DNA from: Acidobacteriota bacterium
GTDB taxonomy: Bacteria > Acidobacteriota > Thermoanaerobaculia > Multivoradales > Multivoraceae
Reading direction: 5' to 3'
Length of the DNA: 34,250 nt
Assembly: GCA_011523565.1 (NCBI GenBank)
Contig: WTGL01000055.1
Span: forward strand, 1-34,250
Below the pieces are notes generated by a model that did not search any database, was not told where the DNA came from, and worked only from the letters and a program-made list of their open reading frames with translations. Below, piece after piece: positions 2,870 through 14,357 of this stretch (its first letter is position 1; each line of letters opens with the position of its first letter). A program made the translations under genes and the position numbers.

Positions 2870-4030
2870 GTGAGTTTGGGAGCTACCGAACAGACACAGC
2901 CGGCGTTCGTCGGCCGAAACGCGGAGGTCGCGGACGACTTCTGTCCGATTCTCGGTTTCGACCACCTGGAACTCTACGTCGGCAACGCGAAGCAATCGGC
3001 TGCGTACTACTGCCACGCGTTCGGCTTCGAGTGCACCGCGGCACGCGGGCTTCAGACCGGCGAGCGGACGCGCGCGTCCTACCTGGTGGAGCAGGGCGGC
3101 ATTCGGCTCGTCCTGACCAGCGGCCTGCATTCGTCCCACGACGCCGCCCGGTCGGTCAGCAGGCACGGCGACTCGGTCGCGGTGATCGCGCTCTCGGTAC
3201 CAAGTGTCGACGAGGCGTTCTCCGCCGCGGTATCGAGGGGTGCGAGGCCCGCGGCTTCGCCGGCAGTCGCCAGCGACGACCACGGTCAACTCCGTCACGC
3301 CTCGATCCGTCTCTACGGCGACTGCGTGATGCAGTTCATCGAGCGAGGTGACTACAGCGGCGTCTTCGGCCCCGGCTTCGAGGCGGCGCCGGAAGTGGCT
3401 GGCGCCTCCCGCTCCCGGGGCTGCGGGCTGCACACGATCGACCACGTTGTGGCCAACGTCGAGCTGGGTCGGATGAACGAGTGGGCGCGGTTCTTCTCAC
3501 GCGTCCTGGGGTTCAACCAACTCGTCCACTTCGATGACGAGGCGATCTCGACCGAGTACTCGGCCTTGATGTCGAAGGTGATGCAGGACGGTTCGGGGGT
3601 CATCAAGTTCCCCATCAACGAACCCGCCGAGGGCCGCAGGAAGTCCCAGATCGAGGAGTTTCTCGACTTTCACGAAGGGCCGGGCGTGCAGCACATCGCC
3701 TGTCGAACCGACGACATTCTCGGCACCGTGTCCCGGCTGCGTGAGAACGGAGTCGAGTTTCTTCACGTCCCGGAGAACTACTACGACGACCTCGAGCAGC
3801 GGGTCGGAGAGATCGACGAGCCGATCGATCGTCTGGCCGAGCTCGGCGTCCTCGCCGACCGCGACGAGGACGGCTACCTGCTGCAGATCTTCACCAAGCC
3901 GGTCGAGGATCGGCCGACGCTCTTCTACGAGATCATCGAGCGACATGGAGCCAGGGGATTCGGTGAAGGCAACTTCAAGAGCCTGTTCGTGGCGCTCGAA
4001 CAGGAGCAGGCGGCACGGGGCAACCTGTGA
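2870..4030 (+). CDS. hpd: 4-hydroxyphenylpyruvate dioxygenase
   Basis: A 386-residue non-haem Fe(II) dioxygenase that converts 4-hydroxyphenylpyruvate to homogentisate. It has two vicinal-oxygen-chelate halves: a degenerate N-terminal one from about residue 28 (FDHLELYVGNAKQSAAYY) and the catalytic C-terminal one. The three iron ligands are His192 (IDHVVANVE), His275 (VQHIACRTDD) and Glu354 (FYEIIER). The C-terminal GNFKSLFVALEQEQ followed by RGNL is characteristic of true HPD and argues against a plain glyoxalase; hydroxymandelate synthase is the main alternative and is less likely in this operon. Translation starts at GTG behind a strong Shine-Dalgarno sequence. Its stop overlaps the start of the phenylalanine hydroxylase gene by four bases, implying translational coupling. 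Confidence 0.96.
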   Translation: MSLGATEQTQPAFVGRNAEVADDFCPILGFDHLELYVGNAKQSAAYYCHAFGFECTAARGLQTGERTRASYLVEQGGIRLVLTSGLHSSHDAARSVSRHGDSVAVIALSVPSVDEAFSAAVSRGARPAASPAVASDDHGQLRHASIRLYGDCVMQFIERGDYSGVFGPGFEAAPEVAGASRSRGCGLHTIDHVVANVELGRMNEWARFFSRVLGFNQLVHFDDEAISTEYSALMSKVMQDGSGVIKFPINEPAEGRRKSQIEEFLDFHEGPGVQHIACRTDDILGTVSRLRENGVEFLHVPENYYDDLEQRVGEIDEPIDRLAELGVLADRDEDGYLLQIFTKPVEDRPTLFYEIIERHGARGFGEGNFKSLFVALEQEQAARGNL

Positions 4031-10037: not shown

Positions 10038-10496
10038 GTGAGCCTGATCGACGGGGTCGGCGGCGCATTCGTCTTCAGCGAGGATCCGAAGCGACTCGCC
10101 GACTGGTACACGGAGCACCTGGGCATCGCCTTCGAGGGGAGCGAGGAGTTCGGCGCCTTCTACGTCCGCTACGTAGCGGCCGACCCGGACGACGCCGCGT
10201 GGGTCATGGACACGACCTTCGCGATCATGAAGGCGAGACGGCCGGTGCCGCGGATGGCGCCCAACGAAGGGACGGAGCCGGGGGACATGTACGGCGACCA
10301 GCCGTTCATGGTCAACCTGCGGGTGCGTGATCTCGATGCGGTACTGCAACACCTCGCCGAACGGGGCGTCGAGCCGCTTCGCCGGGATGATGAGGGCTAT
10401 GCGCTGTTCGCCTGGGTCCGGGACCTCGAAGGGAACCGCGTCGAGCTGTATCAACCCCGGCCGGAAGCCGCCCCGGCCGCGGGCACGGAGGGCTGA
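10038..10496 (+). CDS. VOC (glyoxalase/bleomycin resistance/dioxygenase) superfamily protein
   Basis: A 152-residue small vicinal-oxygen-chelate protein. Two beta-alpha-beta-beta-beta modules are recognisable: GGAFVFSEDPKRLADWYTEHLGIAFE at the start, and MVNLRVRDLDAVLQHLAERGVEP followed by FAWVRDLEGNRVELYQP at the end. The second carries the terminal acidic residue (VELYQ) typical of the metal-binding half. No specific reaction can be assigned; members include glyoxalases, fosfomycin-resistance enzymes and many unassigned proteins. The GTG start (10038) has only a weak ribosome site, and no ATG is available in frame. It lies 64 bases after the VWFA-related pair and nine bases from the convergent stop of the peroxiredoxin gene. 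Confidence 0.82.
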   Translation: MSLIDGVGGAFVFSEDPKRLADWYTEHLGIAFEGSEEFGAFYVRYVAADPDDAAWVMDTTFAIMKARRPVPRMAPNEGTEPGDMYGDQPFMVNLRVRDLDAVLQHLAERGVEPLRRDDEGYALFAWVRDLEGNRVELYQPRPEAAPAAGTEG

Positions 10497-10505
10497 GGCC
10501 CGCCT

Positions 10506-11027
10506 CTATTCCAGTCCCTGGCAGGCGGCCTTCGCGCCGGCCGGGTCCATCGCCTCGCCGCCTTCGGCGATGTAGGCGATCCTGCCGTCCTTGCCGACCA
10601 CGTAGGTCACGCGCTTGGCGAGACCGGCGTACTGTTCCATCGTCCCGCCATACTGATTGATGACCTTGGCGTCGACATCGCTGAGAAGCGCGAAGTCGAG
10701 TCCCAGGTCGGCGGCGAACTTCTTGTTGTCCTCCAGCTTGTCGGCGCTGATGCCGAAGACGATGGAGTCACTGTCCGTGAAGTCGGAGATACCAGCCTGG
10801 TACCTGTTCATCTCCATCGTTCATCCGCCGGTGAAGGCTTTGGGGAAGAAGGCGAGGACGACGTTCTTCTGGCCCGCGAAGGACGACAGGGTCACCTGGG
10901 TGCCGTCCGTGCTGGGCAGCGTGAAGTCGGGGGCCGCGTCGCCGACCGTCGGCGAGGCGGCGTTTGCGGGTGCGGCAGCGAAGGCGGCGGCGGCCAGAAG
11001 CATCGCCGAGGTTGCGCAACGGATCAT
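10506..11027 (-). CDS. prxU: Exported selenocysteine-containing peroxiredoxin (in-frame TGA read as Sec)
   Basis: A 173-residue AhpC/TSA-fold peroxiredoxin if the TGA at 10823-10821 is decoded as selenocysteine. Both halves are in the same frame with nothing missing. The first ends FFPKAFTGG and the second begins [14 protein letters not shown], so the TGA falls exactly where BCP/AhpE-type peroxiredoxins carry the peroxidatic cysteine of the T-x-x-C motif. Sec69 thus forms T66-G-G-U69, the TxxU form known from PrxU selenoproteins. Arg139 (AKRVTYVV) matches the family's active-site arginine, and Cys169 near the C-terminus is the only mature cysteine and a possible resolving residue. Residues 1-24 are a signal peptide ([14 protein letters not shown]), so it acts outside the cytoplasm. 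ATG 11027 has AGGAG five bases upstream. A SECIS-like hairpin lies just after the TGA. Without selenium machinery it would be a truncated pseudogene; the undamaged downstream half argues against that. Confidence 0.88.
10785..10823 (-). promoter_or_regulatory. Bacterial SECIS-like element directly after the UGA codon
   Basis: Reading the minus strand, the UGA (10823-10821) is followed by GGAGA (10815-10811), an eight-base 5' bulge, then UACCA (10802-10798), a GGC loop (10797-10795), UGGUA (10794-10790) and UCUCC (10789-10785). Both stems are perfect: a five-bp upper stem stacked on a five-bp lower stem. Twenty-three bases separate the UGA from the loop, and the loop starts with GG. Known bacterial SECIS rules ask for a stem-loop soon after the UGA, about 16-37 bases to the apical loop, with a G among its first two bases. 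The element meets all of these and lies inside the coding region, as in fdhF. Confidence 0.82.
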
Positions 11028-11037: not shown

Positions 11038-11168
11038 GGTTCTCGGGTTCGTGCCGTTCTCGCTCGTTTCGCGACCGGAAGACCGGCGCCATGGAGGCGG
11101 GAAGCGCGCGGGAGTGTAGCAGCCGTGCGGTACAGTGCATCCTGGTGGCGGCGTACAGGGAGAGTCCC

Positions 11169-11187
11169 CGCGGGCACGGTACCCGCG
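11169..11187 (+). other. GC-rich hairpin in leader of the propeller/cytochrome gene
   Basis: CGCGGG and CCCGCG flank a seven-base loop (11175-11181), ending 20 bases before the proposed GTG at 11208. It could affect translation start or be part of the divergent promoter region. No T-run follows, so it is not a standard terminator. Confidence 0.35.
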
Positions 11188-11207
11188 CTGGAACTCCCGG
11201 GTCGGCA

Positions 11208-14200
11208 GTGCAGCGGGGCCGCCGCTGGACCCTGGCGCCGCTAGCGACCGTTTCGGTTCTCGCCTGCGCTCCGCCGGTGCTCGAAGACGTACCGGCCGGC
11301 TTCGAACTCCACCCGGAGTTCAAGCTCGAGCTGGTCGCCGCGGAGCCGGTCGTGGTCGACCCGATCGACCTCGCCTTCGACGAACGGGCCCGGGCATTCG
11401 TGCTCGAACTCCCCGGCTACCCGGACATGAAGCGGCCGGCACGCATCGTGACCGTCTCGGACACGGACGGCGACGGACGATGGGATCGACGACGACTGTT
11501 CGCCGGCGATCTCGGCATGGCGGACTCCATCCTGCCCTGGCGCGACGGACTCCTGGTGGCAGCACCCCCCGACATCCTCTACCTGGAAGACGCTGACGGC
11601 GACGGGAAGGCGGATCGTCGCGAGGTGCTGCTCAGCGGTTTCGCCGAGGGCAACCCCCAGCACAACGTGAACGCGCTCCGGTACGGCCTCGACAACTGGG
11701 TGTACGGCGTGAACGGAGGCAATGGGGCCAGGCCGTTCTGGCCGGAGGCTCCGGAGAAGGCCATCGAACTCGGGCAGGACGACTTCCGGGTCGATTTCAG
11801 ATCCCGGCGCTTCGAGCCGACCGGCCGTGGCGCCGGCGGTTTCGGGATGACGTTCGGTGTCTGGGGCCGCTCCTTCGCCACCCACAACCTGGATCACCTG
11901 AGTCAGCTCGTGATCCCGCGCCGCTATCTCGGGCGGCTGCCGCCCTCGTGGCAGAGCGGCCGCCTCCGCCTGGCGGCCCATCCGGACGGAGGTCCCGCCG
12001 AGCTGTTTCCGATCGGCGTGCGCCAGACGCGGCCCAATCACCCGGAGCAGTCGAGCCGGTTCTCAGCCGCCTGTGCCGTGACGGCGTACGGCGGCGGCGC
12101 CTTCGACGGCGCGGCTCTGCCCGGCGAGTGGCTGTCCGTCTTCGTAGCCGATCCGTCGGCGAACGTCGTGCATCGCGCCGTGGTCGATGTGGAGGGTGCT
12201 TCGGCCAAAGCCGGCCGCGGCCGTCCCGGAGTCGAGTTCCTCGCCTCGACCGATCCGCTGTTCCGACCGGTCAACCTGCGCGTGGGCCCCGATGGCGCGC
12301 TCTACGTGCTGGACATGCACCGGGGCGTGATCGAGCACCCGGAGTGGATTCCCGATTCGGTCGAGGCCGCGCTCGATCTCTACGAGGGGGAAGACCGCGG
12401 GCGCGTCTACCGAGTCGTTCCGGCGCGCGGTCTGCCGGCCTGGGCGGCGGACGCGGGCGGCCTGGACCGGTCGCGGACCGCCGACCTCGCCCAAGCCCTC
12501 AGTCATCCGAACCGGTGGCGCCGCCTGACGGCACAGAGACTGCTCGTCCAGGAGCACGGCGCGGAGCCCCCGGCGGCTCTGGTGACGAGCCTCCGGGACC
12601 GCGTCCTCGAAACGGACAACTCCCTGGGGCGGCTCCATGCCCTGTGGTCCCTGGCAGGTCTCGGAGCGCTCGACCGGGCGACCCTCGAGGCTCTGCTCGG
12701 CGACCCGCATCCGGAACTTCGTCGAAACGCGGTGCTGGCCCTGGAGGAAGCGCTTTGGGGCGGCGCGCCGACCAACGGGTTCGCGAAGACGCTGGTGGGT
12801 CTGATCGGCGATCCGGAACCGGCGGTGCGGCTGCAGGCGATCCTCACCGCCGGCCTCCTGCTCGAATCGGAGGCGTACTTTGGGCCGGAGTTCGGCCGGT
12901 CGGTCGCCTCCGCGGTCGTGGCCGGAACGGCGCGCGCCGCGCCCGGGACACCCACATCGGCCGGCGTGGAGAACCTGGAGCGGCCGCAGCCCGAGCGCGA
13001 CGGGCCGTGGCTTCGCCTGGCGACGGTCGCGGTCCTGGCCGACGATCCGGTCGCCGCGCTGAGGCTCCTGCTCGCGTCCGCCGGGCCGGTCGACCTGGGG
13101 GGCGCGGACCTCGTCGAGCGGGTGGCCGCGCTTGTTCCGGCGGAACGGTTGGGCGAGATCGTCGGCGACTCCCTGGTCCTGCGCGCTCTGAGTGGGGCCG
13201 GGCCCGAGAGCGCCGGCACGGGTCGCGCGTTGCTGGCGGGGCTGACGGCGGCTGCCGGCGCCGGCAGCGCTGAGATCGTCGCGGCGGATCTCCTGGCGCC
13301 ATTGCGGCGCCTTCGCCGATCGAGCGACGATTCCCTCGCCGAGTCGGCCTGGCGCATGACCGCCGCTCTGGAGGTCGATGTGCCCGCGGAGGAGATCGCG
13401 CACCTTGACTGCGCCGGAGTGCGGGCAGCGAACGGAAACCGCGATGTGGGCGAGCGGCTCGAGGCTCTCGCGCTCTTCGGCCTTCGCCGACTCTGGCCCG
13501 GTAGCACAGAAGAAGCATCCGCTCCGTGCCCGGGCGGTGCAAGCCCCGGCGAGACGTTCGCAACCGGCTCCTGGCTGGAACAGATGGGTTCGTTGATGGA
13601 TGCCGGCCATCCGGCGCCGGTGCAGCGGGCGGCCATGGCGGAGCTTGCGGCGGCGGAGGAGGCAACGGTCACGGCCTACGTCGTCGATCGCTGGCCCTTC
13701 CTGGGGCCGGCCGCGCGAAGGGATGCCGGGAGTTATCTGATCCGGGGCAGGGGGCGGCACCGCGCTCTTCTCGACGCGCTGGAGAGCGGCCGCATCCGAC
13801 TCGGGGAGATGAACTTCATCCTGGAACGGCGGCGCTTCCTGCTGCGTTCGCCGGACCAGGACGTGCGGCGCCGCGCGGCGGCCCTGTTCGACGATGCCGG
13901 CGTCACGACGCGGGCCGAGGCGATCGCGGCGATGCGGCCGGCGCTCGAACTCGACGGCGAGCCGGAGCGGGGCGAGGCGCTGTTTCTTGAGCTCTGCGCG
14001 CGTTGTCACCAGAGCGGTGGTCTTGGTTTCGGTCCCGGCCCGGATCTCGCCGGCATCGGCCGCAAGAGCGGCGAGACCCTGCTGCACGACATCCTGGACC
14101 CGAACGCCGCGGTCGACGCCACCTACGTGAACTACATCGTGGAAACCGTGGAGGGCGAGGTCTTCTCCGGCATCCTCGCCGAGAGCTCCGGCAGCGGCGT

Positions 14201-14357
14201 GGTTCTGCGGGCTGCCGAGGACGCGGTGATCGAGGTCCCGGTTGAACGGATTCGGGAAGTGCGCAGCGACGGGCTCTCGATGATGCCCGAGGAACTCGAG
14301 GCGGGCCTCGAACCCGGGGACCTGGCCGATCTGCTGGCCTTTCTGAGCCGCGCCTGA
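11208..14357 (+). CDS. Lipoprotein with beta-propeller, HEAT-like repeats and C-terminal cytochrome c (PVC-type haem-binding protein)
   Basis: A protein of about 1049 residues resembling the large 'membrane-bound dehydrogenase' propeller plus haem-domain proteins first noted in Planctomycetes and Verrucomicrobia. The start at GTG 11208 gives a short basic n-region, a hydrophobic stretch and VLAC with Cys20 as a possible lipid-anchored cysteine; GTG 11145 and ATG 11091 are alternatives. Residues about 30-410 form the propeller ([22 protein letters not shown], repeated D-x-D-G-D-G loops, and later [19 protein letters not shown]). Residues about 420-900 are Ala/Leu-rich helical repeats of HEAT type. 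The C-terminus has a single haem c site, CARCH (Cys930, Cys933, His934), followed by the [25 protein letters not shown] segment of that haem-domain family. The substrate is unknown; sugar oxidation is often proposed for the family but not shown here. It is divergent from the selenoperoxiredoxin. Confidence 0.87.

Follow-up and report, generated by a model that had tools for sequence, protein, structure and literature searches.

A peroxiredoxin gene with an in-frame TGA codon

The window, by which we mean the whole 34,250 nt stretch of DNA that was analysed, carries on its minus strand a gene of 173 codons plus a TAG stop (10506..11027), identified through frame translation, Pfam and homologs as encoding a putative selenocysteine (Sec) peroxiredoxin with one TGA read through. 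From 11027 down to 10506 it forms a single ATG to TAG frame of 173 residues, in which the TGA at codon 69 (10821..10823, minus strand) is the sole internal stop. An earlier note on this DNA had taken two apparently separate ORFs to be one frame interrupted by TGA only, which is what the translation gives, and had predicted that annotation would split or truncate the gene; the ORF lister does indeed cut the frame into two ORFs at this codon. With Cys in the place of Sec, the joined protein matches the Pfam family AhpC-TSA (PF00578) over residues 28-153 (115.7 bits, cut-off 26; 1.7e-33).

Frame and alignment put the TGA at the peroxidatic position of a T-x-x-U motif. Residue 69 is aligned with the T-x-x-C cysteine of both 2ywn and Mycobacterium tuberculosis AhpE, in agreement with the earlier reading of the TGA as a replacement for that cysteine. 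The surrounding AhpC/TSA sequence had been described as intact, including Arg139, and this was confirmed by the Pfam match and by the presence of P62, T66 and R139; across a 50-row alignment the columns of U69 and R139 (codon at 10611..10613, minus strand) are invariant, and that of T66 is nearly so. The N-terminus, up to around residue 24 (10956..11027, minus strand), resembles a signal peptide on visual inspection and in a test of hydrophobicity. Cys169 (codon at 10521..10523, minus strand) is the only cysteine of the protein outside this segment, and hence the single mature cysteine that the earlier note had named; alignment and tree rows mark it as a candidate resolving cysteine, kept in the clade described below. 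The stretch from 10506 to 11027 is thus almost certainly one AhpC/TSA selenocysteine peroxiredoxin frame, and not a broken gene.

Two genes flank the peroxiredoxin. The convergent neighbour (10038..10496, plus strand) is VOC/glyoxalase-like by eye, has no family match, and lies beside the gene in all 21 loci of the genus. The divergent neighbour (11091..14357, plus strand), the true start of which is possibly downstream of 11091, encodes a DUF7133, HEAT and cytochrome c protein found beside the gene in 20 of the 21 loci, there being no match in the 2851-base locus L031. No redox partner was found adjoining the gene, its flanks consisting of this one convergent and one divergent gene.

Conservation of the TGA codon

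The joined protein was searched against 78 genomes, namely its own and those of 77 relatives. In all 20 other genomes of the genus, as in its own, the best homolog contains exactly one internal TGA, always at the residue aligned with position 69; these 20 homologs have 71-95% identity to the window protein. The TGA is also at this site in L039, from another genus of the same family (54% identity), and in L041, from another family of the same class (45% identity). Nei-Gojobori dN/dS values 3' of the TGA range from 0.07 to 0.56 in seven within-genus comparisons, indicating protein-level constraint on the downstream part of the gene; such constraint is seen on both sides of the codon. A genus-wide TGA at residue 69 is far beyond chance.

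A pseudogene or a sequencing error, with the TGA being a chance nonsense mutation of TGC or TGT, would need only one base change, and one of the genus copies (L024, in genome G009) is frameshifted near its C-terminus, where sequencing error and decay could not be told apart. The other 20 of the 21 copies are otherwise intact, and the scattered stops that the earlier note had named as a refuting sign were absent from the genus relatives, the frameshift in L024 being the one lesion. Because all 21 genus genomes share this TGA, as do more distant relatives, and given the dN/dS values downstream of it and the presence of Sec machinery, the explanation by mutation or error can be almost entirely discounted.

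A clade of peroxiredoxins, most with a predicted selenocysteine

Homologs were also collected by a scan of one genome per species, from which the best 80 of 535 loci were kept. This sample was found by similarity to the window protein, and the tree, hairpin and export tests all rest on it. The codon at position 69 is TGA in 27 and TGC or TGT in 53 of these best 80 of 535 loci, so that the column holds either U or Cys, the two states that the earlier note had proposed looking for in homologs. A quick maximum-likelihood tree, midpoint rooted and made without bootstrap, was built from 93 rows (35 Sec and 58 Cys), comprising 79 of the 80 scan loci, 13 of the 30 loci from the 78-genome search and the window; a Sec form containing N (L115) was left out, and only the first domain of three Poribacteria rows was used.

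The window protein falls within a 34-row branch having 97% SH-aLRT support and composed of 29 Sec and five Cys rows, and 53 of the 58 Cys rows in the tree fall outside it. The Sec or Cys label changes at least seven times on the tree, or four times when only well supported branches are counted. Named members of the branch are from Acidobacteriota (for example, an uncultured Thermoanaerobaculia and Holophagales SB0667_bin_1), Anaeromyxobacter, Corallococcus and Citreicoccus; a Chloroflexi row, L136, is also found there, on a long branch that makes its placement doubtful.

By a crude test, every one of the 35 Sec rows (29 from the branch, six from elsewhere in the tree) has a hydrophobic N-terminal extension, as do four of the five Cys rows in the branch and 27 of the 53 Cys rows outside; L041, the start of which was not found, passes barely. 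Hence export would be the norm for the sampled Sec rows, and the suggestion in the earlier note that a signal-peptide-bearing form is unusual was too strong. A Cys at least 85 residues past the catalytic position is found in 32 of the 34 branch rows and in none of the other 59, and one of the two exceptions, L039, ends at a contig end.

Three Poribacteria loci (L105:2597-, L108:4956- and L134:4857-) encode exported-looking, two-domain peroxiredoxins of 336-347 residues, each frame containing two in-frame TGA codons, such that both domains have U at their catalytic position; the motif of the second domain is TGGU in L134 and GRGU in L105 and L108. In the table of PMC13188914, the TxxU peroxiredoxin is listed as having one Sec.

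A hairpin downstream of the UGA codon

Comparative analysis identified a probable apical hairpin of a bacterial SECIS element at 10787..10805 (minus strand), with the sequence AGGUACCA-GGC-UGGUAUCU: an eight-pair stem capped by a GGC loop, with 23 nt between the TGA and the loop. Alignment columns 22-38 are invariant across 22 rows, these being the 21 of the genus and L039. In a test of codon usage that left out the frameshifted L024, codons 76-80 (TAC CAG GCT GGT ATC) were identical, with no synonymous change, in all 20 intact genus rows, even though these genes otherwise use both GCT (15 of 549 Ala codons) and GGT (14 of 357 Gly codons) rarely. The mean synonymous diversity of codons 70-82 is 0.068 versus 0.177 elsewhere, a value as low being reached in 560 of 20,000 random draws. 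The lowest ranking codon windows are those starting at 91, 92, 76 and 77; the windows from 91 and 92 lie below any hairpin window, so variability is lower still in a stretch that is not part of the hairpin.

Covariation was assessed in 27 Sec rows (26 of them distinct), consisting of seven of the 21 genus rows together with L039 and 19 further Sec rows; compared with the clade's 29 Sec rows, this set is without L037, L083 and L084 and includes L034. The stem has a covariation score of 0.265, compared with a mean of 0.145 (sd 0.021) in shuffled alignments, none of 500 of which scored as high, a control that can be inflated by related rows. In these rows 73.6% of the cells of the eight-pair stem are paired, against 28.4-44.7% when the stem is slid along the alignment. 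The signal is weak in two of the five measures of covariation, with 48 of 500 shuffles being as high in pair changes on both sides and 90 of 500 in further pair types. Seven of the 27 rows do not form the hairpin in this register, and pairing rises to 92.1% of cells in the 20 rows left once these misfits are removed, a selection made post hoc. In L085, L089 and L101, a U-A pair replaces C-G in the stem, coinciding with Asp for Gly in the protein.

Hairpins following the codon were also compared between Sec and Cys loci using a rule of our own, loosely modelled on descriptions of bacterial SECIS elements, that demands a loop of 3-8 nt with a G among its first two bases, a start 16-34 nt after the codon and at least three pairs. 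The best such hairpin was stronger in 26 Sec loci than in 53 Cys loci (Mann-Whitney p 6e-6), and the shuffle p value was 0.1 or lower in 15 of the 26 Sec rows and four of the 53 Cys rows, the rows in both comparisons being unmatched for relatedness. Folded singly, the downstream region of the window has an unexceptional energy (z -1.03; 26 of 200 shuffles as good). The near invariance of the hairpin in the genus and its covariation in the wider clade are as expected of a bacterial SECIS, which it probably is.

Selenocysteine machinery and a split tRNA-Sec gene

The assembly to which the window belongs is 3.72 Mb in size, lies in 327 contigs and is 88.7% complete. It has matches above the curated cut-offs to selA (435 bits), selB (351 bits, parts included) and selD (259 bits), and selB is above cut-off in all 21 genus genomes. 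The regions examined around selA, selB and selD yielded no tRNA. An over-threshold Rfam match to tRNA-Sec in the same genome (51.9 bits) was rejected, as ARAGORN identified it as tRNA-Ser(TGA); another suspect, L005, reads as an ordinary tRNA with a stretch of N inside it.

In the genus mates, a tRNA-Sec match of 95-96 nt scoring over 70 bits was present in 19 of 20, the exception being G014, and ARAGORN called tRNA-SeC with the anticodon TCA in 29 of the 30 loci submitted, including all 14 from the genus. The corresponding gene in the window's own genome was traced by synteny, using the 7.5 kb surrounding the G015 gene as the query. Contig C67 (9,989 bases) ends with nucleotides 1-52 of tRNA-Sec, TCA included, identical to those of G015, and contig C193 begins with nucleotides 46-95, at 98% identity to G015. 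The gene is never whole on one contig of this assembly, and had seemed to be missing because it is split across two contig ends. The selA, selB, selC and selD genes, the absence of which would have spoken against the earlier note's selenoprotein, are thus all represented, with tRNA-Sec divided between C67 and C193.

At the start of C193 (L179:1-138), a second copy of tRNA-Sec nucleotides 46-95 lies 87 bases further on. This duplicated 3' half may be the repeat that broke the assembly, and is possibly the scar of an integration site. Repeats of approximately 50-200 bases also flank the tRNA-Sec gene on both sides (L163:2840-2960 and 3829-4019), and recur at about 40 places on many contigs of the window's own genome (G000).

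G020, a one-contig genome from the genus, has the Sec-peroxiredoxin together with tRNA-Sec and selB on that contig, so the pairing of gene and machinery in the genus is not an artefact of binning. More widely, selA is above cut-off in 23 of the 26 genomes having Sec loci and in six of nine genomes chosen for their Cys loci. The three Sec-locus genomes with no selA above cut-off are G096, where the match is cut at a contig end, G089, a genome of 1.6 Mb, and G081.

UGA might be decoded in other ways, either by readthrough with a standard amino acid or by reassignment of the codon. Decoding of UGA by near-cognate tRNAs is a known phenomenon and could provide the former. However, TGA terminates three of the six neighbouring genes in the window that were examined; its use as the stop of ordinary genes indicates that UGA is not reassigned genome-wide. 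The position of the codon exactly at that of the catalytic Cys, the presence of the Sec components and the covariation of the downstream hairpin also count against this explanation, which we consider very improbable.

Predicted structure and proposed mechanism

An AlphaFold2 model built from 50 rows has the peroxiredoxin fold, with a pLDDT of 91.7. Residue 69 is located in the first turn of a helix spanning residues 67-78, and Cys169 is in the last helix, 163-171. The best Foldseek matches in the PDB were Bcp4, Bcp1 and AhpE (E ~1e-15 for AhpE).

Our preferred interpretation, in which we have high confidence, is that the gene encodes a selenoprotein, with SelB and a SECIS guiding Sec to UGA69, and that the product is an exported, AhpE/PrxQ-like peroxiredoxin, most likely resolved by Cys169 and reduced by a system fed by DsbD. 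The frame, the TGA with its position and conservation, the RNA element, the machinery and the predicted fold are products of computation. From these we infer that Sec is incorporated and that the protein is exported and acts as a peroxidase, as well as what Cys169 does and which system donates the electrons.

The stem-loop, with its loop 23 nt downstream, would guide SelB in delivering Sec-tRNA(Sec) at the codon 69 UGA, and translation would continue past the UGA to the TAG. The AhpE/PrxQ-like product would then be exported and would have an extracytoplasmic place of action, of which the periplasm is the likeliest. There, in what would be the usual peroxiredoxin chemistry with a selenol replacing the thiol, Sec69 would attack the peroxide, aided by Thr66 and Arg139, and the resulting selenenic acid would be resolved, the most probable route being formation of a selenenylsulfide with the conserved Cys169. 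It is the conservation of Cys169 that leads us to favour this resolution step. The oxidised enzyme would be reduced by a periplasmic thiol system fed by DsbD.

A different possibility is that the protein is a selenoprotein behaving like a 1-Cys (that is, 1-Sec) enzyme, as AhpE does, with an external thiol cycling Sec69 and Cys169 having another redox role or none. AhpE, which is titled a 1-Cys peroxiredoxin in the PDB, is among the closest folds, and Cys169 sits within the last helix of the model; against this, the C-terminal Cys is kept in the clade and absent from all rows outside it, a pattern that suggests a function. We regard a 1-Sec enzyme as a substantial possibility, if not the one we would expect, and retain resolution by Cys169 as the preferred step.

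The DsbD_TM family (PF02683) is present in 20 of the 21 genus genomes, these being all 20 mates, and had no match in the window's own, 88.7% complete assembly; DsbD could be the source of extracytoplasmic reductant for the peroxiredoxin. The window's own genome encodes two further exported-looking proteins with one TGA each, within a W-U-P-Y-C (UxxC) motif: L181 (G000:C55:5569-6633) and L182 (G000:C183:21860-22399), both likely to be selenoproteins. Three genus mates (L165, L166 and L167) have a related third protein, Prx-like and exported-looking, that likewise contains a TGA within W-U-P-Y-C (UxxC) and has a long C-terminal part. These additional W-U-P-Y-C proteins make a stronger case for the use of Sec, and are possible partners of the peroxiredoxin.

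More speculatively, the clade could represent a distinct and mostly Sec-using family of exported peroxiredoxins extending from Acidobacteriota to Myxococcota, which would remove extracytoplasmic peroxide through a Sec69-Cys169 selenenylsulfide and be recharged by DsbD and exported UxxC selenoproteins, the Poribacteria having an independent two-domain, two-Sec version; taken as a whole, we think this scheme more doubtful than probable. Were it true, Sec-based peroxide defence would reach beyond the inner membrane. If export in particular is correct, it raises the questions of why selenium is spent on removing peroxide outside the cytoplasm, and of which reductant is used there. Gene callers that treat TGA as a stop split this gene, so an antioxidant enzyme found throughout the genus is easily missed. 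The mixture of 29 Sec and five Cys forms among the sampled rows also makes the clade a place to study the exchange of Sec and Cys.

Comparison with known systems

Among the closest known systems is the selenocysteine peroxiredoxin TxxU of PMC13188914 (Table 1), which has the same AhpC/TSA domain (PF00578) and one Sec in place of the peroxidatic Cys; relative to it, the window protein adds a signal-peptide-like N-terminus and a C-terminal candidate resolving Cys. The same source counts TxxU peroxiredoxins among experimentally verified selenoproteins, as the earlier note had stated in calling them established, and gives Sohling 2001 as the first example; the terms 'periplasm' and 'signal peptide' are absent from its main text. 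TxxU peroxiredoxins are placed under COG1225 in PMC9312934, and three selenoprotein families were counted in Acidobacteria in PMC1794560.

None of the 11 NCBIfam models matching the window protein reaches its curated cut-off. The score against peroxi_PrxU (NF040737) is 42.1 bits, below the cut-off of 270. Prx-SUH (NF045827) is likewise a thiol peroxidase selenoprotein; the window protein scores 24.9 bits against its cut-off of 298, and the Prx-SUH motif, as given in PMC13188914, is CxxU rather than TxxU. The best NCBIfam matches are to PrxQ/Bcp (NF006960 and NF053650), at 82.4 and 64.9 bits, short of cut-offs of 140 and 260 respectively. Among solved structures, M. tuberculosis AhpE (Rv2238c; 1xxu and 4x0x) has 37-38% identity to the window protein, with TM-scores of approximately 0.8 (query) and 0.9 (target). 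The catalytic residues align, although AhpE has Cys where the window protein has Sec, and the solved AhpE chains align only from query residue 24, hence these chains are without the N-terminal extension.

No description of an exported TxxU subfamily with a C-terminal Cys was found in the open-access papers searched, which is weak evidence of absence. With TxxU peroxiredoxins already verified in PMC13188914, the kind of protein is known; what is new here, judging from sequence comparison, is a predicted exported variant with a C-terminal Cys, falling below the cut-off of every NCBIfam model that it matched.
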